DNA from: Phytoactinopolyspora endophytica
GTDB taxonomy: Bacteria > Actinomycetota > Actinomycetes > Jiangellales > Jiangellaceae
Assembly: GCF_004138495.1 (NCBI RefSeq)
Contig: NZ_ML142865.1
Coordinates: forward strand, 130,509 to 143,960
Reading direction: 5' to 3'
Length of the DNA stretch: 13,452 nt
Numbering within the stretch: the first letter of the stretch is position 1; every line of letters starts with the position of its first letter. The notes under the pieces were generated by a model. That model saw nothing but the letters and a program-made list of their open reading frames with translations, did not search any database and was not told the origin of the DNA. Of this stretch, positions 1-13,127 are shown piece by piece. Position numbers and translations under genes: made by a program.

Positions 1-1106
1 GTGAGCTGGGCGGCGAGCGTCCGGGACTCGGCGGATCCTTCCCGGATCGTCTCCTGGCCGGTGACGTCGACGACCGGCCGCGGCGGCGCGTTCCGGCGGG
101 CGGCGTCTCGGCGGAATGCGGGGGTGTCGACCGGTGCCGTCCAGAGCCGTTCCAGCTCGTCGTCGAGGAAGGTCACGGTCAGGGAGAGCCCGGCCATGTC
201 GAGACTGGTCACATGCTCGCCGACCTCCGGGTCCACGATCTGCAGACCGGCCTCGCCCAGGCGATCCGCAACGCGGGAGTAGACGACGAACAGCTCCTCA
301 TATTTCGAGGCACCGAGGCCGTTGAGCAGCACTGCCACCCGCCCGACGTAGCCGTCCTCGCCGCGTTCCGGTTCCTCGGCCAGCACTCCGTCCACCAGAA
401 CGTCGGCGATATCCGCCGCGCTGCCGCGCGGCCGGGTCTCGATGCCGGGCTCACCGTGGATGCCGAGACCGACGCCCATCCCGCCATCCGGGACGGCGAA
501 CAGCGGATGGTCTGCTCCGGGCAGCGTGCATCCGGAGAAGGCCACCCCGAGCGACCGGGTCCGGTCGTTGGCGCGCCGGGCCAGCCGCTCGACCTCGTCC
601 AGGGTCTGGCCTTCCGCGGCGGCGGCACCCATAATCTTGAAGACGAGTAGATCACCGGCGATTCCGCGCCGGTCCAACGCCCGGTCCGGTGGTCCGGAGG
701 CGACGTCATCAGTGGCCGTGACGGTGCGGACATCGATCCCTTCGGCCCGCAGCCGTTCCGCGGCCTGGCCGAAGTGCAGGACGTCGCCGGCGTAGTTGCC
801 GAAACCGAAGATGACACCGCCGCCGTTGTCGGCTGAGCGTGCCACCGAATAGATCTGCGACGCCGACGGCGATGCGAAGATGTTCCCGCAGGCCGCGCCA
901 TGCGCCATCCCCGGCCCCACCCAGCCGGCGAATGCGGGGTAGTGCCCGGAGCCTCCGCCCAGCACGACGGAGACCTCGCCGTGCGCAGAGCGGTCGGTAC
1001 GGACGACGCCGCCGTGCACGCGCTGGACGTAGCTGGAATTCGCGGAGGCGAATCCGGCCAGAGCCTCGTCACAGAAGTTTCTCGCGTCGTTGCTGAGTCT
1101 GGTCAT
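1..1106 (-). CDS. dhaK: Dihydroxyacetone kinase family protein (DhaK domain), 3' end outside window
   Basis: The 368 visible residues form a complete DhaK ketose-binding domain. DhaK binds a short ketose covalently so that its hydroxyl can be phosphorylated, using ATP on a DhaL domain or PTS phosphate. Visible residues are GGGSGH at 50-55 (His55, general base), Asp108 in GNYAGD, and His217 in GIHGEPG, the hemiaminal histidine. These match E. coli His56, Asp109 and His218. Lys104 of E. coli, a substrate contact, is Gly103 here. The reading frame is still open at the window edge, about 30 residues beyond the usual end of DhaK, in a linker-like stretch. A fused DhaL domain is therefore likely (inference). 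The ATG lies 3 nt after the stop of the isomerase-like gene, and GGAGGG across that stop is the RBS, so the two are probably translationally coupled. The natural substrate could be dihydroxyacetone or erythrulose. The family assignment is secure. Confidence 0.9.
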   Translation of the reverse strand, partial: MTRLSNDARNFCDEALAGFASANSSYVQRVHGGVVRTDRSAHGEVSVVLGGGSGHYPAFAGWVGPGMAHGAACGNIFASPSASQIYSVARSADNGGGVIFGFGNYAGDVLHFGQAAERLRAEGIDVRTVTATDDVASGPPDRALDRRGIAGDLLVFKIMGAAAAEGQTLDEVERLARRANDRTRSLGVAFSGCTLPGADHPLFAVPDGGMGVGLGIHGEPGIETRPRGSAADIADVLVDGVLAEEPERGEDGYVGRVAVLLNGLGASKYEELFVVYSRVADRLGEAGLQIVDPEVGEHVTSLDMAGLSLTVTFLDDELERLWTAPVDTPAFRRDAARRNAPPRPVVDVTGQETIREGSAESRTLAAQL

Positions 1107-1109
1107 CTC

Positions 1110-2048
1110 TCACCCTCCGAGCTTGGCGGTCAGGATCTGACGCACGTAATCCCGGTTCCGCGCCGAGACACTCAGGCCGTCGCCACCGTAGTGCTCGACG
1201 CAGAACGGACCGCTGAAGCCGGCCTCCAGGGCCATCCCGATGGCGCGGCGATAGTCGATGTATCCGAGCTCCAGCGGAGCCGGGGCGGAGAAGTAGGCGC
1301 CGGTGGCCGGGTCATGGTCGCGGAAGTAGTTCTTGACGTGCCAGTAGTTGGCATAGGGGAGCATCTTGCGCAGCATCTCGTCCCAGTCCTCGATACCGCG
1401 GTGCAGGCGGACGATGTTCCCGATGTCGGGGTTGAGGCCGACGTTGGGCAGGCCGATCTCTTCGACCAGGTGGACGGCGCTGTCGGCGGTGCCAAGGTAC
1501 GTGTCCTCGTACATCTCCAGGGAGATCTGTACGCCTAGTTCGGCAGCCCGTTCACCGATGCGGCGGAAGCCTTTGACAGCCGCGGCGCGGACGTCGTCAT
1601 CGGCCGGGTCCGTGGCGCCCTCGGCGAGCCAGAACCACAAGGCGCGCTGCTGGGCCGGGGTGAGGGGGCGGTGCAGGCCGAGGCAGACGACCGGGATTCC
1701 CATGTCGGCAGCGGCATCCATTGTGCGCAGCGCGTACCCGAGGTTCATCTCGGCACGGGCGGGATCCGGGTCGATGATGCTCTTGCGCGTGACGGATATG
1801 GCACTGAACGACAGGCCGAGGTCGGCCCCCAGCGCCTTCAGGTCGCCCCGCTGTGAGCCGGTCAGGTCGCCGGGGCGCACCCACGAGTCGGTCAGATCGA
1901 CGTGACTGAAGCCGGCGAGGGCGACCTCGCGGAGGGTGCCGCGCCAGTCGTCGACGTCACCGTCGGTGATGTCCGTGCCGTCCGCACGCGTGCCGGGGAA
2001 CTGAAGCAATGCGGCACCTATCGGCCACGTGTCCGGGCTGAACGGCAT
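1110..2048 (-). CDS. Sugar phosphate isomerase/epimerase-type TIM-barrel protein (AP endonuclease 2 fold)
   Basis: This 312-residue protein has the size and motif pattern of the xylose-isomerase-like TIM barrel / AP_endonuc_2 family, which covers hydroxypyruvate isomerases, ketose 3-epimerases, dehydratases and some sugar-acid decarboxylases. The divalent-metal tetrad is visible: Glu178 (ISLEMYED), Asp208 (NPDIGN), His237 (WHVKN) and Glu285 (CVEHYG). There is no signal peptide, so it should be cytoplasmic. The ATG at 2048 was chosen because AAGGAG lies 8 nt upstream; the frame is open much further upstream but crosses the promoter and the opposing gntR. It is the first gene of a leftward operon with the DhaK-type kinase, so it probably makes or rearranges the kinase's substrate. 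Possible roles are a ketose isomerase, an OtnI-like 2-keto acid isomerase, or an OiaC-like 3-oxo-isoapionate decarboxylase. Sequence alone does not decide between them. Confidence 0.85.
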   Translation of the reverse strand: MPFSPDTWPIGAALLQFPGTRADGTDITDGDVDDWRGTLREVALAGFSHVDLTDSWVRPGDLTGSQRGDLKALGADLGLSFSAISVTRKSIIDPDPARAEMNLGYALRTMDAAADMGIPVVCLGLHRPLTPAQQRALWFWLAEGATDPADDDVRAAAVKGFRRIGERAAELGVQISLEMYEDTYLGTADSAVHLVEEIGLPNVGLNPDIGNIVRLHRGIEDWDEMLRKMLPYANYWHVKNYFRDHDPATGAYFSAPAPLELGYIDYRRAIGMALEAGFSGPFCVEHYGGDGLSVSARNRDYVRQILTAKLGG

Positions 2049-2094
2049 ACGGAACTCTCCTTGCGTCTGCGGCTTTGAGGTCCTGGTGGTAAGT

Positions 2095-2112
2095 ATCGAA
2101 GATCCTATAGGA
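2095..2112. promoter_or_regulatory. Candidate operator in the divergent ISO/gntR promoter region
   Basis: The perfect palindrome TCCTATAGGA occupies 2103-2112. Read on the minus strand, 2109 to 2095 is TATAGGATCTTCGAT, which matches the pdxA upstream site at 14 of 15 positions. The embedded TAGGAT (2107-2102, minus) also fits an actinobacterial -10 box for the leftward operon, with TTGTTC 17 nt upstream as a weak -35. It sits just upstream of the gntR -35 box, so a bound regulator could affect both directions. The likely ligand is the adjacent GntR/FCD protein (inference). Confidence 0.55.
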
Positions 2113-2115
2113 CAT

Positions 2116-2150
2116 TTGCTACCGGAACAACGGTGCGCTAACCTCCGTCC
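2116..2150 (+). promoter_or_regulatory. Candidate leaderless promoter of the gntR regulator
   Basis: TTGCTA at 2116-2121 is separated by 17 nt from TAACCT at 2139-2144, a good sigma-70-type pair in an actinomycete (TAnnnT -10). Six bases lie between the -10 box and the ATG at 2151, so transcription would begin at or next to the A of the start codon. No Shine-Dalgarno sequence precedes that ATG, which agrees with a leaderless transcript. Confidence 0.5.
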
Positions 2151-2891
2151 ATGGCGCTCGCGGGTTCGGATATGGCACCGGCACGGCTCAAGCGGCAGAT
2201 GCTCCGGGACGACGTGTACAAGACGTTGCTCGACATGCTCCTGGAGGAGCGATTGAAGCCGGGGGCGTCGTTGAGCATCGACGGGCTGGCCCGCGATCTG
2301 GGCGTCTCGCCCACTCCCGTCCGGGAGGCGCTGGTCTTTCTCGAGCACACCGGATTGGTGGCGCGGGCCGCGCTGAAGGGGTACAAGGTGGCGCCGCGCC
2401 TGTCCGCGGCGCAGATGAGCGATCTGATCGACGCACGTGCCGTGGTCGAGCTGGCTGCCATCCGGCGGGCGGCAGAGCGTGGCCAGGAGCTGCTGCCCAG
2501 GCTCCGGGAGGCGCACGAGGGGCACCTGGCGGCGACGAACGAGCTGGTACGGTCTGCCCGCGCGGGGACCGTGCCGTCCGGCCCGGCGATCCGGGCCTAC
2601 TTCGAGGCCGACTGGGAGTTCCACTTGGTCGTGGTGGATGCGAGCGGCAATACGTTCCTGCGGCAGATGCTCGACGGCCTGGGTGCGCACCTGCATCGCA
2701 TGATGCAGTCGGCCGGGCGGGGCGTCATGGACTGGGAGGTCGCCCTCAGCGAGCATGGCCGGGTGCTCTCCGCGATCGAGGCGGCCGAGCCGGACCGGGC
2801 GGTCGAAGCGATGCGTCAGCACCTCGCCGGAGTGCAGGGGCGCGCCCTGGCGGAGTTCGCTCCGGACGACGAGCGCGACCAGATGTCCTGA
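2151..2891 (+). CDS. GntR family transcriptional regulator, FadR/FCD subfamily
   Basis: This 246-residue regulator has an N-terminal winged helix (about residues 20-82, with the recognition segment GVSPTPVREAL at 51-61) and an all-helical C-terminal FCD ligand domain (about 90-232). FCD domains bind small carboxylates, usually through a metal. Candidate ligands here are Asp154, His158, His202 and His224, spaced as in other FCD proteins. The gene lies between the leftward ISO-dhaK operon and the rightward pdxA-tct operon, and near-identical sites occur at both metabolic promoters. It is thus the likely local regulator, probably a repressor released by the imported acid or a catabolite (inference). 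The ATG at 2151 has no RBS, but a -10 box ends 6 nt before it, so leaderless translation is the best explanation. A second in-frame ATG at 2172 also lacks an RBS. Confidence 0.9.
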   Translation: MALAGSDMAPARLKRQMLRDDVYKTLLDMLLEERLKPGASLSIDGLARDLGVSPTPVREALVFLEHTGLVARAALKGYKVAPRLSAAQMSDLIDARAVVELAAIRRAAERGQELLPRLREAHEGHLAATNELVRSARAGTVPSGPAIRAYFEADWEFHLVVVDASGNTFLRQMLDGLGAHLHRMMQSAGRGVMDWEVALSEHGRVLSAIEAAEPDRAVEAMRQHLAGVQGRALAEFAPDDERDQMS

Positions 2892-2943
2892 CCGACCCTT
2901 GTCAGCGGCTGTGAGCTATGGCACAGTCCTTAATCACATTCCA

Positions 2944-2958
2944 TATAGGATCTTTGAT
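2944..2958 (+). promoter_or_regulatory. Candidate operator / -10 region upstream of the pdxA-tctCBA operon
   Basis: TATAGGATCTTTGAT differs at one position from the motif in the divergent ISO/gntR promoter, and in both cases it points toward the controlled gene. The preceding bases are also similar (CACATTCCA here, CAAATGTCC there). TAGGAT at 2946-2951 can serve as a -10 box, placing the transcript start near 2958 and giving a leader of about 32 nt before the ATG at 2991. No convincing -35 box was found, which would suit an activator or a weak promoter. Confidence 0.5.
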
Positions 2959-2990
2959 CTACGGAGATCGTCGTGTCCGAAAGGAGTCCC

Positions 2991-3995
2991 ATGTCCGGGA
3001 TACGTGGGCACCGTCCGCGCATCGCCCTCACACCGGGCGATCCATCCGGTATCGGTTTCGAGCTCGTGGCCAAGCTTCTCGCCGAGCCGTTCAACTTGGC
3101 GCGGGCGGATGTATCCGTGCTGGCCAGTGCTGAGGAGCTCAGTGCCGCCGCGGCCGAGACGGGGGTCGTGGTCCCGCTGGCCGGCGAGCCGCACGCCGAA
3201 GCCGCCTCAGCGGTCGGCAGTGCGCTGGCCGACCGGCCGTTCGTGCGAGGCGAGGTGACCAGGCAGGCAGGCGAGCGTGCTCTCGCCGACCTGCGGTCTG
3301 CGGTGGAGATGTACCAGCGGGGCGAGATGGATGCCATCGTCTTCGCCCCGTTGAACAAGTCGGCGCTGTCGCTGGCGGGCATGGAGGACGAGGATGAGCT
3401 TCGCTGGTTCGCCCGTGGACTCGGCCATGACGGCACCACGTCGGAGCTGAATCTGGTCCCTGGCTTGATGACGTCCCGCGTTACCTCCCATATACCCCTG
3501 CGCGACGTGGCGCAGCACATTAGCGCCCGTCGTGTCGCCGCCGCCATCCGGCTCCTCAATGACGTCGTCCGTGCCTCCGGCGTCGAGCGGCCGCGGCTGG
3601 CGGTCTGCGCCCTCAACCCGCACGCCGGTGAGAACGGGAAGTTCGGCACCGAGGAGGGCGATCACATCGCTCCCGGCATCGCGCTGGCCGCGCACGAGGG
3701 GATCGACGCGGCCGGCCCCTACCCGTGCGACACCGTCTTCATCCGGGCGCGTGACGGTGGCTTCGACGGCGTGGTGACCATGTACCACGACCAGGGCCAG
3801 ATCGCGATGAAGCTCATGGGGTTCGACCAGGGCGTCACGGTCCAGGGCGGATTGCCGGTCCCGATCGTCACGCCGGCGCACGGCACCGCGCACGAGATCG
3901 TCGGTCAGGGGATCGCCAAGACCGGGCCGATCCAGCGCGCGTTCGACGTCGCACTCACCCTGGCCGGCACGCGCCCTGTATCCGAAGGGCACTGA
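2991..3995 (+). CDS. PdxA-family NAD-dependent dehydrogenase/decarboxylase, divergent substrate site
   Basis: This 334-residue protein aligns along its whole length with PdxA, a metal- and NAD-dependent enzyme that oxidises a hydroxy acid to an unstable 3-keto acid, which then loses CO2. The start ITLxPGDPSGIG-like motif is present at 11-22. All three metal histidines are present: His167 (SHIPLRD), His211 (NPHAGE) and His266 (YHDQG), plus Lys274. In contrast, the E. coli PdxA substrate contacts His136, Thr137, Asn283 and Arg292 align with Glu136, Leu137, Thr283 and Ile292. Pyridoxine synthesis is therefore unlikely. A catabolic role on a different, perhaps unphosphorylated, acid fits the adjacent carboxylate transporter. 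TphB, the terephthalate-diol dehydrogenase, is a precedent for a PdxA-fold enzyme with such a substrate. The ATG at 2991 follows AAGGAG with a 4-nt gap; GTG at 2973 (GGAG, 6-nt gap) is an alternative that adds 6 residues. Confidence 0.85.
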   Translation: MSGIRGHRPRIALTPGDPSGIGFELVAKLLAEPFNLARADVSVLASAEELSAAAAETGVVVPLAGEPHAEAASAVGSALADRPFVRGEVTRQAGERALADLRSAVEMYQRGEMDAIVFAPLNKSALSLAGMEDEDELRWFARGLGHDGTTSELNLVPGLMTSRVTSHIPLRDVAQHISARRVAAAIRLLNDVVRASGVERPRLAVCALNPHAGENGKFGTEEGDHIAPGIALAAHEGIDAAGPYPCDTVFIRARDGGFDGVVTMYHDQGQIAMKLMGFDQGVTVQGGLPVPIVTPAHGTAHEIVGQGIAKTGPIQRAFDVALTLAGTRPVSEGH

Positions 3996-4070
3996 CCACC
4001 CGAGACATGCCGACTCCTGAACCTTCCCAGCCGCCCGTGCGGCGCTCGCCGCCTTCTCGAGGAGGAGAAG

Positions 4071-5048
4071 ATGATCGATCGACGGACTACTGCTTCCCTG
4101 CTGGCCCTGGCCGCCACCGGCCTACTCGTGCTGTCCGGTTGCTCAGGCAACGCGCAAGGCGGTGAGGGCGATGGTGGCTCGCCCGGCCGGAACATCACCA
4201 TGATCGTGCCGTTCTCCGCGGGTGGCGGCTCTGACCTTGCAGGTCGCGCCATCGCGCAAGGGCTGGAGGACGTCACCGGCTCCACGGTCACCGTGGAGAA
4301 CATCGTGGGCGGTTCGGGCGCGGTCGGCTACTCTGACCTGCTGGCCAAGGAGGGCGACGGCACGACCCTGCTGGCCAGCGAGACCGCCCTGATGACATTG
4401 CCCGTGGTCCAGGACGTCCAGTTCAGTCACGAGAGCTTCACACCGATCATGAAGGTCGGCGAAGATTACAACATCGTCGTCGTGGCGGCCGACGCATCGT
4501 ACGAGACATGCATGGACGTCGTCGACGCCGCCGCCGAGTCGAGCCTGACCGCAGCCGTCTCCGGGGCCACCGGGCCGGACCACATCGCGTGGAGCCTGAT
4601 CGAGGATCAGCATGACATCTCGCTGGAGCGGGTGACCTTCGAGTCCAGCGCAGAGGTGACCGCAGCGTTGCTGGGGGGTCACATCGACGTCGCCGCCACC
4701 AGTCCGGGGGAGATCGTCGGACAGCTCGAGTCGGGCGATGTGAAACCGCTGTGCGCGCTCGCCCCGGAGCGTTACGAGTACGAGCTGCTGGCGGACGTTC
4801 CCACCGGAGCGGAGCAGGGCATCGATGTGACGTTCGCGCAGTGGCGAGGGTTCATCGCCGCCGGCGGTGTGTCGGAGGAGCACGAGCAGTACTGGATCGA
4901 CGCCGCCCGCGAATACGCCGAGACCGATGCCTACGAGACCTACATCGAGGACAACATGCTCCAACCGCAGGTCCTCTACGGTGATGAGTTCCGCCGCTAC
5001 CTCGACGAGTACCGCCAACAGGTGGAGGCGGTGCTCGGTGATGAGTGA
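4071..5048 (+). CDS. tctC: Tripartite tricarboxylate transporter substrate-binding lipoprotein (TctC family)
   Basis: This 325-residue protein is an extracytoplasmic solute-binding protein of the TctC/Bug family, which captures carboxylates and delivers them to the TctAB membrane pair. The N-terminus is a lipoprotein signal: charged MIDRR, a hydrophobic core, then lipobox LSGC with Cys24 as the lipidation site, as expected for a Gram-positive cell. Family motifs include MIVPFSAGGGSD at 44-55 and GGSGAVGY near 80-87. The RBS is a strong GAGGAGGAG just before the ATG. It lies 75 nt after pdxA, and its stop overlaps the tctB start in ATGAGTGA, so all four genes are probably one transcript. The ligand cannot be read from sequence because the family binds many organic acids. 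Context suggests a hydroxylated sugar acid or similar carboxylate (inference). Confidence 0.92.
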   Translation: MIDRRTTASLLALAATGLLVLSGCSGNAQGGEGDGGSPGRNITMIVPFSAGGGSDLAGRAIAQGLEDVTGSTVTVENIVGGSGAVGYSDLLAKEGDGTTLLASETALMTLPVVQDVQFSHESFTPIMKVGEDYNIVVVAADASYETCMDVVDAAAESSLTAAVSGATGPDHIAWSLIEDQHDISLERVTFESSAEVTAALLGGHIDVAATSPGEIVGQLESGDVKPLCALAPERYEYELLADVPTGAEQGIDVTFAQWRGFIAAGGVSEEHEQYWIDAAREYAETDAYETYIEDNMLQPQVLYGDEFRRYLDEYRQQVEAVLGDE

Positions 5049-5577
5049 GGCGGGACAACCGGTCCGGCGCGCACCCACGAAGTCCGACGCGGTCGGGACC
5101 GCATTCCTCGCCGCAATCGGCGCGGTCGCCCTCGTCATGGGGCTCGGCTACGGCATGTTCGGCGACGGTGGCCAGGTCGGGCCGGGGTTCCTGCCGTCGG
5201 TGGCGGGCGCGTTCATCGTCGTGGCGTCTGCGGCCGAGCTCCTTCGGATGTACGTTGCCGCAGACAGGATCCGCGCTGCGGCAGCACAGGAACGTCCGGC
5301 CGGCGATGAACGCGACACGTTCGGCCGGACCGCGAACGAGCGGACTTTCGCGGTGACCCAGGTGTTCGGGATCGTCTTCGCGGCCCTGCTGCTGGTTCCG
5401 GTGGCCGGGCTGCTTCTGTCGCTGGCTGCGATGGTCCTGGTCATCACGGTGTGGGTGGAACGTAAGCCGGTGCTTCCGGCCGTGCTCTGTACCGCCGGCT
5501 CGCTTGGACTGGCGTACGCCGTCTTCGTCCAGTTCCTTGGCGTGCCGGTCCCCACGGGCACGCTCGGGCTGCTCTGA
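5041..5577 (+). CDS. tctB: Tripartite tricarboxylate transporter small membrane subunit (TctB family)
   Basis: This 178-residue protein is the small, poorly conserved membrane subunit of the TTT transporter. Four to five hydrophobic segments are visible at about residues 19-39, 49-69, 104-138 (long, possibly two passes) and 143-167. The motif GQVGPGFLP at 44-52, between the first two, is the usual TctB signature. A charged cytoplasmic loop (about 72-103) separates the two halves. The ATG at 5041 overlaps the tctC stop by 8 nt, and GGAGG at 5024-5028 inside tctC is a plausible RBS; GTG at 5038 is a possible alternative start. It partners TctA in the membrane in a sodium- or proton-driven importer. 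Confidence 0.88.
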   Translation: MSEAGQPVRRAPTKSDAVGTAFLAAIGAVALVMGLGYGMFGDGGQVGPGFLPSVAGAFIVVASAAELLRMYVAADRIRAAAAQERPAGDERDTFGRTANERTFAVTQVFGIVFAALLLVPVAGLLLSLAAMVLVITVWVERKPVLPAVLCTAGSLGLAYAVFVQFLGVPVPTGTLGLL

Positions 5578-5589
5578 CTGGGAGGACCC

Positions 5590-7104
5590 GTGTTCGACAA
5601 TCTTCAACTCGGACTCGAGACCGCGATCAGTCCCGAGAACCTGCTGTGGTGCTTCGTCGGTGTGATGCTGGGCACGGTGATCGGGATGCTGCCGGGCTTG
5701 GGCTCGGCCACCGGCGTCGCCATCCTGCTCCCGGTCACCCTCGGCATGGAGCCGGTGACGGCGCTGATCATGCTCGCCGGCATCTACTACGGCAGCCAGT
5801 ACGGCGCATCGACCAGCTCCATCTTGATCTCAACGCCGGGTGATTCCTCGAGCGTTGTGCTGACGCTGGACGGCTACCAGATGGCAAGGAAGGGGCGTGC
5901 CGGTGCCGCCCTGGCCGTCGCCGCGCTGTCATCGTTCCTGGCAGCGGTCATCTCGCTCATCGGCCTCATGGCGCTGGCGCGGCCGATCGCGGATCTCGCG
6001 CTGGAGTTCGGGCCACCGGAGAACCTGGCGGTGATCCTGCTCGGCCTCGCCACGATCGTCTCCTTCGCCGGCGAGAACATGCTGCGCAGCCTCATCATGG
6101 CGGCTGTCGGGCTGCTTATCTCGATGGTCGGCGTGGCGTCGGGCTTCACGACGGCGCGGTTTACCTTCGGCAACGTCAACCTGCTCAGCGGGCTGGACTT
6201 CGTCGCCGTGATGATCGGGATCTTCGCCATCGGCGAGGTCCTCCAGCAGATCCATCGAGGTGGTGATCCGCCGATCCGGGCGCGGTTCCGTGACCTGATG
6301 CTGACCAAGGACGAGTTCCGCCGGTCGATCGCTCCGGCGTTCCGCGGCACCGGGCTGGGCTTTGGTCTCGGCGTGCTGCCGGGTGCGGGGGCGACGCTGG
6401 CCACATTCATGTCCTACGGCCTGGAGAAGCAGGTCAGCAAGAACCGGAAGGAGATCGGCAAGGGCGCGGTCGAGGGGGTGGCCGCACCAGAGGCGTCGAA
6501 CAACGCGGCGGCCAACGCCAGCTTCATTCCGACACTCTCGCTGGGCATCCCGGGTAGTGGAACGACCGCCGTCTTGCTGGGGGCGTTCGTCATCTTCGGC
6601 CTCCAGCCGGGACCCCAGCTGTTCGACCAGCAGCCGGACCTGGTCTGGGGACTGCTGGTGTCGTTCTTCTTCGGCAACTTGCTGCTGCTGATCCTGAACC
6701 TGCCGCTGGCGCCGGTGTTCGCCCAGGTTCTGCGGGTGCCGTACAGCTATCTGTATCCGATCATCCTGTTCATGGCCCTCATCGGCGCGTTCGCCATCGG
6801 CAACAACACGTTCGCGCTCTGGGTCGTCTTCGGAGCCGGGGTGTTCGGCTACTTCATGAAGCGATTCGACTTCCCGGCTGCGCCGCTGGTTCTGGGGCTG
6901 GTCTTGGGGCCGCTGCTGGAACGGTCATTGGTGCAGACGTCATCGATGGGACGGGGAAACCTGCTGATCCTCTTCGAACGGCCGATCTCTGCGACGTTGA
7001 CCGTCGCCGCGATCCTGGCCATCCTCGCGCCGGTCCTGCTCCGAGCTGTGCGCAGACGGCGCCGGTCAGCGCTGACGTCGGAGCGGGAAGAGATTCGGCA
7101 GTGA
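5590..7104 (+). CDS. tctA: Tripartite tricarboxylate transporter large permease subunit (TctA family)
   Basis: This 504-residue protein is the main permease of the TTT system and has the normal family length, with about 10-12 hydrophobic segments. The two pseudo-symmetrical substrate-site motifs are intact: GMLPGLGSATGVA at 32-44 and GVLPGAGATLATF at 261-273. EGVAAPEASNNAAA at 295-308 and LGIPGSGTTAVLLGA at 318-332 are also typical. The C-terminus is Arg-rich and cytoplasmic. Translation starts at GTG 5590 with GGAGG 4 nt upstream, 12 nt after the tctB stop. It is the last gene of the pdxA-tctCBA operon. Nothing appears truncated, so the transporter should be functional. Confidence 0.95.
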   Translation: MFDNLQLGLETAISPENLLWCFVGVMLGTVIGMLPGLGSATGVAILLPVTLGMEPVTALIMLAGIYYGSQYGASTSSILISTPGDSSSVVLTLDGYQMARKGRAGAALAVAALSSFLAAVISLIGLMALARPIADLALEFGPPENLAVILLGLATIVSFAGENMLRSLIMAAVGLLISMVGVASGFTTARFTFGNVNLLSGLDFVAVMIGIFAIGEVLQQIHRGGDPPIRARFRDLMLTKDEFRRSIAPAFRGTGLGFGLGVLPGAGATLATFMSYGLEKQVSKNRKEIGKGAVEGVAAPEASNNAAANASFIPTLSLGIPGSGTTAVLLGAFVIFGLQPGPQLFDQQPDLVWGLLVSFFFGNLLLLILNLPLAPVFAQVLRVPYSYLYPIILFMALIGAFAIGNNTFALWVVFGAGVFGYFMKRFDFPAAPLVLGLVLGPLLERSLVQTSSMGRGNLLILFERPISATLTVAAILAILAPVLLRAVRRRRRSALTSEREEIRQ

Positions 7105-10284: not shown

Positions 10285-10974
10285 TTGGACATCACATCGT
10301 CATGTCTGCGCACCGTCGTGCGGACGGCCACGTCGATCGGCATCGCGGCAGGAGTGATCTTCGGCGCGGTCGCGTGCGGGGACGGCGAGCCTTCCGGGTC
10401 GGCGTCGGTGAGCGAGTCCGCCTCGCCGACGCCGACCGCCACGCCGACGTCGAACACTCCGGAGCCGGTGGAGACACCGACGCCCACCGAGACTCCCACG
10501 CCGACGCCCGTGATCACCGTGAAGACGGTGACGGAGACGGAAGCCATACCGTTCGAGCAGGTGCAGCGCGATGACCCCGAGATGGAGGAGGGGGAGACCG
10601 CCGTCGTCGACGAGGGCGTGGACGGGGTCAAGACATTGACCTTCGAGGTCACGCTCACCGACGGCAAGGAGACGTCTCGCGAGCTGGTCGGCGAGGAGAT
10701 GACGACGGAGCCGGTGGACGAGGTCCTCGCCGTGGGGACCTACGTGGAACCTGAACCGGAACCTGAACCGGAGCCGGAACCAGAGCCGGAACCAGAGCCG
10801 GAGGCTGGGTGCGATCCCAACTACGAGGGGGCGTGCGTGCCCATCGACAGTGACGTGGACTGTGCCGGTGGAAGCGGCAACGGCCCGTCCTACGTCCGAG
10901 GGCCCGTGACCGTGACCGGCACAGACATCTACGGTCTCGACGCTGACGGTGACGGGGTCGGCTGCGAGAGCTGA
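10285..10974 (+). CDS. Secreted lipoprotein with G5-like region, Glu-Pro repeat and excalibur motif
   Basis: This 229-residue exported protein begins at a TTG preceded by AGGGGA with a 5-nt gap. Residues 1-31 resemble a lipoprotein signal ending in GAVAC (Cys31), although -3 is Ala instead of the usual Leu, so lipidation is probable but not certain. A Ser/Thr/Pro-rich linker (about 35-76) resembles wall-spanning spacers. Residues about 76-154 match the G5 pattern (ITVKTVTETEAIPF, then EGVDGVKTLTFEVTLTDGKE), a domain thought to bind glycans or N-acetylglucosamine-containing material. Next is a Glu-Pro dipeptide repeat at 155-173. The C-terminus (about 176-228) has four Cys and ends in DADGDGVGCES, an excalibur-type calcium-binding signature. 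The whole suggests a cell-surface protein tied to wall or matrix. The substrate is unknown. Confidence 0.8.
   Translation: MDITSSCLRTVVRTATSIGIAAGVIFGAVACGDGEPSGSASVSESASPTPTATPTSNTPEPVETPTPTETPTPTPVITVKTVTETEAIPFEQVQRDDPEMEEGETAVVDEGVDGVKTLTFEVTLTDGKETSRELVGEEMTTEPVDEVLAVGTYVEPEPEPEPEPEPEPEPEPEAGCDPNYEGACVPIDSDVDCAGGSGNGPSYVRGPVTVTGTDIYGLDADGDGVGCES
10748..10803 (+). repeat. Tandem Glu-Pro codon repeat within the lipoprotein gene
   Basis: About nine to ten GAA/GAG-CCN units repeat in frame, with mixed third positions (CCT, CCG, CCA; GAA, GAG). Larger sub-repeats such as GAACCTGAACCG and GAGCCGGAACCA are duplicated, which implies growth by slippage or unequal exchange. The encoded rod-like, acidic stalk links the G5-like region to the excalibur motif. 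Length variation between strains is likely. Confidence 0.8.
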
Positions 10975-11954: not shown

Positions 11955-13127
11955 CTACTTCGACGGCGTGGGGCGGGCCGTGGACTCGCGCACCACGAGC
12001 CGAGGCCCGATGACGACGCGATGGTTCGGGCGGTCTTCGGCCGGGTCGTGCAGGCGTGCGGTGAGTAGCTCGACGGCGGTCCGGCCGATCGCCTCCCGGT
12101 GCGGGCGCACCGCGGTCAGCGGCGGATCGCAGAGTGCCGCCACCTGGTCGTCATAGGCGAGCACGGATAGGTCACCGGGGACGTCGATGCCTCGCTCCTG
12201 ACACCGCTCGACCAGAGAGATCGCCTCCGGATCCGAATGCACCAGCAACGCCGACGTCTCGCTGGCCAGGCAGGCGTCGAGGATCTCGTCCACGGTCGTC
12301 GGCCATGCGCTCTCCCGGTGGTCCACGGTCTGCATGTCCGGTACGTCGTCGGTCGGTAGCCCCAGTTCGTCGCAGGCCTCTCGCCAGCCTCGGCGTACTC
12401 GCGGCGTGTGCGGGCTACCCAGTGTCGTGATCAATCCCACCCGCCGGTGTCCCAGCGCGGCGAGGTGCCGTACCGCCACGCTCGCGCCGAGCGGATGGTC
12501 GCTGACCACCGACTCCATCGGTTCCAGGTAGGGCCCGATCGCGGCGGCGCGTTCGACCAGAACAACGGGAACGGTGGCGGACTGCAGCCATCGCACCAGC
12601 TCCTCACCTTCGGGCCCGGTCGTGGTCGGCGCGACGAGCAAGCCGTCCACGCCGACAGCCTCGACGAGCCGATCGAGCTGGCGCCGCTCGTCGGACGCCT
12701 CATAGGTGGCTCCCCGCAGGACCACCCTGACGTCCGTCTCCGCTGCTGCCTCGCGCACTCCACGGATGACATCCGGCCAGTAGTAGTCGAGAGACGGCAC
12801 CACCATGCCGAAGGTGAGATGATGCGACGTCGGTGCTTGCGGCTCGCCCAGGGTGTCGGCGGTCGCGCTGTTCGATGCCGAGTTCTGGCCGTGTGCGAGA
12901 TGAGCAGCCTCGGCGGCGTCCTCGTCGCGTACCGTGGCGCCGCCGTGCACACGCCGCAGCCGGCCCTGCTGTGCGAGCAGCGCGATGTCCCGGCGGACCG
13001 TGATCGGCGTGACGCCGAGGATCTCCGCCAGGTCGTTCACCCGCACCGTCCCTCGGCGGTGCAACACCTCGAGCACGCGGTCCCGGCGCTCCTCCGGAAG
13101 CAGCACCGGTGGCTCAGCCGACGTCAT
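11955..13127 (-). CDS. Chimeric regulator: DeoR-type HTH fused to LacI-type sugar-binding sensor
   Basis: This 390-residue protein joins two parts normally found in different families. Residues 12-66 are a DeoR/GlpR winged helix (NDLAEILGVTPITVRRDIALL, then the wing RLRRVHGGA). After a low-complexity linker (about 68-100), residues about 104-385 form a periplasmic-binding-protein-like sensor of the LacI/GalR type, with FGMVVPSLDYYWPDVIRGV at the start, HLAALGHRRVGLI in the middle and DLSVLAYDDQ near the end. DeoR proteins usually carry a sugar-phosphate sensor, so this one should instead respond to a free sugar or oligosaccharide. The ATG at 13127 has GGAGG 6 nt upstream and overlaps the end of the preceding heparinase-like gene by 14 nt. 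The regulator is therefore probably co-transcribed with a polysaccharide-utilisation gene, which it may control. Confidence 0.9.
   Translation of the reverse strand: MTSAEPPVLLPEERRDRVLEVLHRRGTVRVNDLAEILGVTPITVRRDIALLAQQGRLRRVHGGATVRDEDAAEAAHLAHGQNSASNSATADTLGEPQAPTSHHLTFGMVVPSLDYYWPDVIRGVREAAAETDVRVVLRGATYEASDERRQLDRLVEAVGVDGLLVAPTTTGPEGEELVRWLQSATVPVVLVERAAAIGPYLEPMESVVSDHPLGASVAVRHLAALGHRRVGLITTLGSPHTPRVRRGWREACDELGLPTDDVPDMQTVDHRESAWPTTVDEILDACLASETSALLVHSDPEAISLVERCQERGIDVPGDLSVLAYDDQVAALCDPPLTAVRPHREAIGRTAVELLTARLHDPAEDRPNHRVVIGPRLVVRESTARPTPSK

Follow-up and report, generated by a model that had tools for sequence, protein, structure and literature searches.

A PdxA-like subfamily beside a ketose kinase in Phytoactinopolyspora endophytica: a possible free-hydroxy-acid route in which phosphorylation comes last

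Introduction

This report concerns a gene cluster of Phytoactinopolyspora endophytica in which a PdxA-like dehydrogenase is encoded together with a DAK-type ketose kinase, an AP_endonuc_2 protein of the TIM-barrel fold, a GntR regulator and a TctCBA carboxylate importer. The stretch of DNA analysed, here 'the window', is 13,452 nucleotides long (contig NZ_ML142865.1, i.e., G000:C17:130509-143960), and is part of a 7.6 Mb genome assembly of 64 contigs that is 94% complete. Two routes of sugar-acid breakdown, and one step of an aromatic pathway, come closest to it. The first of these is the D-threonate route, which is said to have been described by Zhang et al. in 2016 and which reportedly employs a DUF1537 kinase followed by PdxA2. 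The likeness is that of a PdxA-family enzyme acting on a sugar acid. The window locus differs, however, in lacking DUF1537, in its altered phosphate-site residues, and in including a ketose kinase within the set.

The second is the route from D-apionate to L-erythrulose (ApnO, OiaC, LerK, LerI, DerI), reportedly described by Carter et al. in 2018. The two have in common a DAK, isomerases resembling TpiA and RpiB, and an AP_endonuc_2 protein of the TIM-barrel fold, whereas the window's entry enzyme is PdxA-like rather than of the PGDH_C type and its importer is TctCBA rather than GntP. According to PMC10733421, LerI, which is homologous to TpiA, acts along with DerI to turn L-erythrulose 1-phosphate into erythrose 4-phosphate. 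The third system is TphB, the terephthalate cis-dihydrodiol dehydrogenase/decarboxylase (4aty, 8zhy and others), to which the window's PdxA-like protein is 26-28% identical. By analogy TphB may serve as a PdxA-family precedent for action on unphosphorylated acids, but its substrate is an aromatic-pathway one. A search of titles and abstracts, with most subscription papers outside its coverage, returned nothing naming the PdxA subfamily or the route considered here.

The explanation that best accommodates the locus, to which we assign a probability of roughly 0.57, is a catabolic set for a free hydroxy acid, with phosphorylation last and a tetrulose as intermediate. That is, TctCBA would import an aldonic acid in unphosphorylated form, the likeliest being a five-carbon one (a pentonate). 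The PdxA-like enzyme, as a proposed free-aldonate 3-dehydrogenase that possibly also decarboxylates, would then oxidize the acid's C3 hydroxyl with nicotinamide adenine dinucleotide. The resulting 3-oxo acid would lose carbon dioxide, either on PdxA or on AP_endonuc_2 in the manner of 3-oxo-isoapionate decarboxylase, giving a tetrulose that probably is L-erythrulose. The fused DAK protein, as a proposed L-erythrulose/tetrulose kinase, would form erythrulose phosphate, and the TpiA-like and RpiB-like isomerases would convert this to D-erythrose 4-phosphate, which enters the pentose phosphate pathway. Both transcription units would answer to the GntR regulator through a shared promoter box.

If this is true, then the proteins annotated as vitamin B6 enzymes include a group with another function. 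Should the subfamily act on free sugar acids, there may be a new entry into erythrulose metabolism, and the misnamed proteins of actinobacteria and proteobacteria could be recognized by Glu136 replacing His136.

The PdxA-like protein and its subfamily

The PdxA-like protein (2991-3995, plus strand; 334 amino acids from an ATG start at 2991) matches its Pfam family over the cut-off. At the columns of E. coli PdxA His136, Thr137, Asn283 and Arg292, which along with Lys274 we take to be substrate-binding residues, it has Glu136, Leu137, Thr283 and Ile292, and the HMMER alignment agrees. The metal histidines His167, His211 and His266 are kept, as are Lys274, Asp247 and Asp267, and there are the further changes of Gly135 to Asp and of Asp296 to Ala. 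These residue states, as reported in the original prediction, are exact with the ATG at 2991. The idea that they are special to this locus did not survive.

That is, in an alignment of 81 rows, consisting of the window protein plus the 80 relatives kept (best 80 of 514), Glu136, Thr283 and Ala296 are present in every row and position 292 is Ile in 54 and Val in 27. Position 137 is variable (Leu 50, Met 16, His 13, Thr 2). The canonical type was represented by 32 rows, i.e., E. coli, the genome's own second PdxA on contig C16, and the 30 best-scoring loci of a separate search. There Arg292 is invariant, position 136 is His in 31 and Gln in one, position 283 is Asn in 29, Ser in two and Thr in one, and position 296 is Asp in 31 and Gly in one. 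Asp135, Glu136 and Thr283 are found as well in all 119 other protein matches examined, of 120 listed. Judged by sequence, Glu136, Thr283, Ile or Val292 and Ala296 are the mark of a PdxA subfamily, and not an oddity of one locus.

A tree set beside residue states and neighbouring genes, as had been suggested along with the original prediction, splits the subfamily and canonical types by one fully supported branch (100/99), at which the E. coli row is long-branched. Neither is the protein a member of the NCBIfam equivalog for PdxA2, i.e., D-threonate 4-phosphate dehydrogenase (NF002891), scoring 192.2 against a cut-off of 583; a further membership score was 247.4 against 290.35. A role in B6 synthesis was rejected because PdxJ (PF03740) has no match in the genome, which is 94% complete, but PdxS is present.

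The locus and its missing DUF1537 kinase

All seven window proteins that were scanned exceed their Pfam cut-offs, which bears out the DhaK-type kinase, TIM barrel and carboxylate importer that had been read from the letters. On the minus strand are AP_endonuc_2, a xylose-isomerase-like TIM barrel (1110-2048; PF01261), and the DhaK domain of DAK (3-1106; PF02733, 375 bits, with NCBIfam PRK14479 also over cut-off). On the plus strand are the GntR/FCD regulator (2151-2891; PF07729 and PF00392), the PdxA-like gene, the solute-binding protein TctC (4071-5048; PF03401), TctB (5041-5577; PF07331) and the permease TctA (5590-7104; PF01970).

The DAK gene continues leftward out of the window and into the left flank (L003, 15.5 kb), where it crosses into what by eye is a DhaL-like domain and ends at L003 14895; it is not fully readable because two assembly N-runs lie inside it. 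RpiB (L003 14402-14872) is next in the operon and TpiA (L003 13629-14405), overlapping RpiB, follows, with 3 bases separating AP_endonuc_2 from DAK and 22 separating DAK from RpiB. The gene left of TpiA is on the opposite strand. Window and left flank together thus hold DAK, RpiB-like and TpiA-like genes in one operon, as in the LerK-LerI-DerI arrangement.

The genes left of position 1 had been singled out as a place where a DUF1537 kinase might appear; the DhaL domain, RpiB and TpiA were found instead. No DUF1537 is seen among the open reading frames of the window, of the left flank or of the right flank (L004), and the adjacent DUF1537 kinase that distinguishes PdxA2-type loci is absent here. 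A PF07005 search of the whole genome found a single DUF1537, on contig C16, and that one adjoins the genome's other, canonical PdxA. The absence of a partner, as originally predicted, stands; concealment by a contig edge was rejected on the flank and whole-genome searches, within the limit of a 94% complete genome.

The same contrast is seen more widely. The locus counts given here rest on single-query searches above 60 bits. In a Fisher comparison which ignores sequence kinship, and from which the 7 of 80 subfamily loci with less than 1.5 kb of flank on a side were dropped, DUF1537 lies within 1.5 kb in 3 of the 73 subfamily loci having at least 1.5 kb on both sides, versus within flanks of about 1.5 kb at 29 of 30 canonical loci (the exception is L136). 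Some of the canonical-locus matches are weak, the lowest best match being 36 bits. Anywhere in the stretch, DUF1537 occurs in 8 of 80 subfamily loci.

Companions of the subfamily and the nature of the ketose

Among the 80 subfamily loci, DAK is found in 11, AP_endonuc_2 in 15, RpiB in 10 and TpiA in 12 (those of L020 and L010 being search matches only). All DAK and AP_endonuc_2 cases fall within 21 actinobacterial loci. Proteobacterial loci have other companions, i.e., proteins of the mandelate-racemase family (37/80), DHDPS-type aldolases (19/80) and aldehyde dehydrogenases (15/80), neighbourhoods which look like non-phosphorylative sugar-acid breakdown. Amidohydro_2 is present in 23 of 80 loci, some of them actinobacterial. 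As an observation in its own right, eight alphaproteobacterial loci (L046, L049, L052, L053, L059, L072, L073, L075) place a subfamily PdxA beside mandelate-racemase-family, DHDPS-type and aldehyde-dehydrogenase genes with no kinase seen, and may represent an unexplored sugar-acid route.

The kinase and isomerases of the operon are extra copies in this genome. Its DAK is 57-69% identical to the DAK of other such modules versus 40% to the genome's own DhaK on contig C22, and its RpiB is 61-79% identical to module copies versus 32% to the copy on C11. Its TpiA is 57-67% identical to those of four modules, and 37-41% to those of other modules and the C1 copy (38% for C1). Other RpiB and TpiA genes are on C11 and C1, besides those of a second module on contig C2. 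RpiB is over the cut-off for NCBIfam TIGR02133 (RPI_actino). In the TpiA type seen here, Ser replaces the Asn of the GNWKM motif, which is kept in the C1 copy. The TpiA at L003 13629-14405 and that at L143 12296-13069, in comparable modules, represent types that are about 38% identical.

The original prediction allowed for either dihydroxyacetone or erythrulose as the ketose. RpiB and TpiA beside DAK favor the latter, and we consider a tetrulose to be the rather likely product of acid oxidation. A four-carbon acid would instead give dihydroxyacetone, with DAK forming dihydroxyacetone phosphate and the TpiA-like enzyme glyceraldehyde 3-phosphate. For this can be said that DAK plus TpiA is classical for a dihydroxyacetone route and that the chemistry of D-threonate and D-erythronate is close. 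It would, however, leave RpiB with no role despite RpiB being present in 10 of the 11 DAK loci, and the window DAK is nearer to other module copies than to the genome's own DhaK, so that such a substrate seems improbable. With the tetrulose preferred, the TpiA-like gene adjoining the RpiB-like gene suggests L-erythrulose 1-phosphate, and hence an acid with L configuration at C4. L-Xylonate and L-lyxonate, which PMC11066805 gives as products of ascorbate breakdown, are guesses as to the natural substrate.

A promoter box shared by both transcription units

The sequence AAGATCCTATA occurs exactly twice in the window, once ahead of each transcription unit: at 2099-2109 (plus strand) between the divergent AP_endonuc_2 and GntR genes, and at 2944-2954, inverted (minus strand), ahead of pdxA. 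With one mismatch allowed the expectation is 0.03, and two copies were reached in 1 of 200 shuffles. The GntR regulator would presumably bind this box. As the box is common to both units, it ties importer and PdxA to the kinase operon.

In relatives, again with one mismatch allowed, L009 and L012 (Zhihengliuella) have boxes at both promoters, and L024, L038 and L064 have them at some of the module promoters. L010 has a weaker match between AP_endonuc_2 and GntR, and single weak matches lie at PdxA in L016 and at TctC in L021. Of the clusters without PdxA, discussed below, L094 has boxes just upstream of AP_endonuc_2 and GntR and L095 has one just upstream of DAK, with L096 showing weaker matches only.

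It might be supposed that the two halves of the locus are unrelated, pdxA-tct handling another acid (e.g., a TphB-like cyclic diol) and the DAK operon handling erythrulose. Consistent with such a division, pdxA-tct is without DAK in the stretch read of L011, L013, L014, L019 and L020, several of those stretches being short. We nevertheless hold it to be very improbable: the set stays together across many genera despite varying order and orientation, and the box stands ahead of both units. A chance neighbourhood was rejected on these same grounds, i.e., conservation of the gene set and sharing of the box.

Clusters with a different dehydrogenase

Homologues of the window's AP_endonuc_2, surveyed at a cut-off of E 1e-40, are scarce, occurring in 4 of 396 genomes of a phylum sample and in 7 of 148 relatives, the genome itself included, and in none of four other genomes of the genus. 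Six other genomes have the protein; the stretch from one of them is 3.4 kb long and holds AP_endonuc_2 and DAK, and those from the other five are wide, with no PdxA in the stretch. Three of these five PdxA-free clusters (L094, L095, L096) have a 3HCDH-family dehydrogenase in a run with AP_endonuc_2, DAK, RpiB and TpiA, adjoining AP_endonuc_2 in L095 and L096 and lying beyond DAK and RpiB in L094. The L096 AP_endonuc_2 is 91% identical to 5tnv, which also is the closest solved structure, by sequence, to the window protein and which presumably is from Mycobacterium smegmatis. The L096 3HCDH protein matches 3f3s and 3ado, which we take to be L-gulonate 3-dehydrogenase/lambda-crystallin, a family unrelated to PdxA; as many 3-hydroxyacyl-CoA dehydrogenases score higher, it is conditionally that we see this protein as acting on a free acid. 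With the dehydrogenase swapped and AP_endonuc_2 and a ketose kinase retained, these clusters make the strongest comparative case for oxidation of the acid in unphosphorylated form.

The remaining two differ. In L100 an isocitrate/tartrate-dehydrogenase-like gene stands with TctA and TctC, without DAK. L101 lacks TpiA but has AP_endonuc_2, DAK and RpiB, among genes of nucleoside uptake, and its run contains none of 3HCDH, Iso_dh and PdxA. There (L101 6742-19500, genome G416) the neighbours of the set encode a nucleoside hydrolase, an ABC importer of PnrA type and a protein of the adenosine-deaminase family; nucleoside-derived ribose or ribonate may perhaps enter as D-erythrulose.

Contig C2 of the same genome carries, in the order DAK-RpiB-TpiA-AP_endonuc_2-PGDH_C protein-GntP (L143, about 9759-16260, with N-runs in DAK and RpiB), what probably is the D-apionate to L-erythrulose route. 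Its PGDH_C protein is closest to 5t57, which we take to be of the D-apionate oxidoisomerase (ApnO) family. No ApnO-type (PGDH_C) protein is among the seven window proteins scanned with Pfam, nor, by NCBIfam, are RpiB and TpiA of that type. The AP_endonuc_2 proteins of the window and of C2 share only remote similarity (34% over 99 residues, E 1e-5). In overall make-up the window cluster resembles the C2 module with its front end exchanged, and the presence in one genome of two pdxA genes and of two DAK-RpiB-TpiA modules that differ in their front ends provides an internal control.

What AP_endonuc_2 contributes is less certain. Residues Glu162, Asp192 and Glu269 are present in 23 of 23 rows and His221 in 20 of 23 (numbering of window:1113-2000), and presumably belong to a metal site. 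Named homologues, among the best 120 of 2956, carry general names such as sugar phosphate isomerase/epimerase. The TIM-barrel protein had been read as isomerase-like, and the 3HCDH partner in three of five PdxA-free clusters suggests that it may be a decarboxylase instead, in which case PdxA need not decarboxylate. We rate this at slightly short of even odds, with tetrulose or acid epimerase as the proposed alternative role.

PdxA alone, that is, might both oxidize and decarboxylate the free acid to the ketose, leaving the TIM-barrel protein as an epimerase or isomerase of acid or ketose. Such a division of labor overlaps with the preferred explanation, sharing its kinase-last order, and we think it a plausible but distinctly less probable arrangement. 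Canonical PdxA decarboxylates, the terephthalate enzyme is titled dehydrogenase/decarboxylase, AP_endonuc_2 has NCBIfam matches to 3-epimerases only, all of them weak, and L101 pairs AP_endonuc_2 with DAK and RpiB in a run with none of the three dehydrogenase types. The 3HCDH clusters, however, better fit a decarboxylase, as 3HCDH-type dehydrogenases are not known to decarboxylate, and the C2 module likewise joins another AP_endonuc_2 to an ApnO-type protein.

Weighing the order of steps

That the PdxA-like enzyme acts before the ketose kinase we consider to be quite probable. The order has more behind it than when originally predicted, i.e., no DUF1537 partner, a ketose kinase linked in 11 of 80 loci, the shared box, and another dehydrogenase in three of five PdxA-free clusters, but there are real counter-examples as well.

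Those counter-examples and other observations weigh against the explanation preferred here. DUF1537 is on the same strand as PdxA and at most 4 kb from it in 4 of 80 signature loci, adjoining the subfamily PdxA in L016, L025 and L028 and lying near it in L039. The L016 PdxA is 81% identical to that of DAK-linked L018 and yet has DUF1537 immediately upstream, and both L016 and L039 fall among DAK-linked rows in the PdxA tree. In L022 (Nocardiopsis) a DUF1537 gene is directly after TpiA, on the same strand and 1.2 kb from DAK, so that DAK and DUF1537 can share one operon; in L064 a partial DUF1537 gene, on the strand opposite to DAK, lies 3.4 kb away from it. In ten of the 21 actinobacterial loci the sequence read, short in some cases, shows no DAK, and L024 and L027 consist of PdxA, Tct and AP_endonuc_2 without DAK. 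The TpiA genes of these modules fall into two types that share only 37-41% identity, RpiB scores 155.7 against the cut-off of 240 for NCBIfam NF051858 (rhizobial D-erythrulose-4-phosphate isomerase), and no box is found at these genes in L015, L017, L018, L022, L027, L039, L041 or L042.

Given the four signature loci and L022, altered residues plus a missing DUF1537 do not prove an unphosphorylated substrate, as had been argued. Mutual exclusion of DAK and DUF1537 was considered and dropped: in a radius of 4 kb around PdxA, DUF1537 is absent from every DAK locus, but L022 shows that the rule fails beyond that distance.

A kinase-first order would have the C16 DUF1537, or an unrecognised kinase, phosphorylate the acid, with the altered PdxA pocket binding phosphate differently. 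The placement of DUF1537 in L016, L025, L028, L039 and L022 speaks for it. It seems unlikely all the same, since all 81 rows have an acidic residue at the His136 position and lack Arg292, the C16 DUF1537 already sits next to a PdxA of its own, and the ketose kinase would be idle. Moreover, some DUF1537 kinases (OtnK, OiaK) phosphorylate 3-oxo acids, after a dehydrogenase, and the presence of DUF1537 therefore need not mean kinase-first. For L016 and L022, either the substrates are other ones, or DUF1537 follows PdxA on an oxo acid, or a second acid is served, or the order there is indeed kinase-first.

A bolder version of the preferred kinase-last explanation, which we regard as rather doubtful, would have the whole Glu136/Thr283/Ala296 subfamily be free-aldonate 3-dehydrogenases, with AP_endonuc_2 decarboxylating here and with an undescribed route leading from an L-pentonate (e.g., L-xylonate or L-lyxonate, both formed in the breakdown of plant ascorbate) via L-erythrulose to erythrose 4-phosphate.

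Additional observations

Two of the DUF1537-bearing loci hold similar sets, L016 8363-14179 (Curtobacterium) and L039 9200-14595 (Mycetocola), each with DUF1537, PdxA, Amidohydro_2 and a galactonate-type MFS protein; the Amidohydro_2 proteins may be lactonases or decarboxylases. In L022 (63-1951, minus strand), the AP_endonuc_2-DAK-RpiB-TpiA run is continued directly after TpiA by DUF1537 and a further small gene. Elsewhere in the window, 11955-13127 (minus strand) encodes a regulator that by eye joins a helix-turn-helix of DeoR type to a sugar sensor domain of LacI type, and 10285-10974 (plus strand) encodes a lipoprotein-like protein with a Glu-Pro repeat and, also by eye, an Excalibur-like C-terminus.

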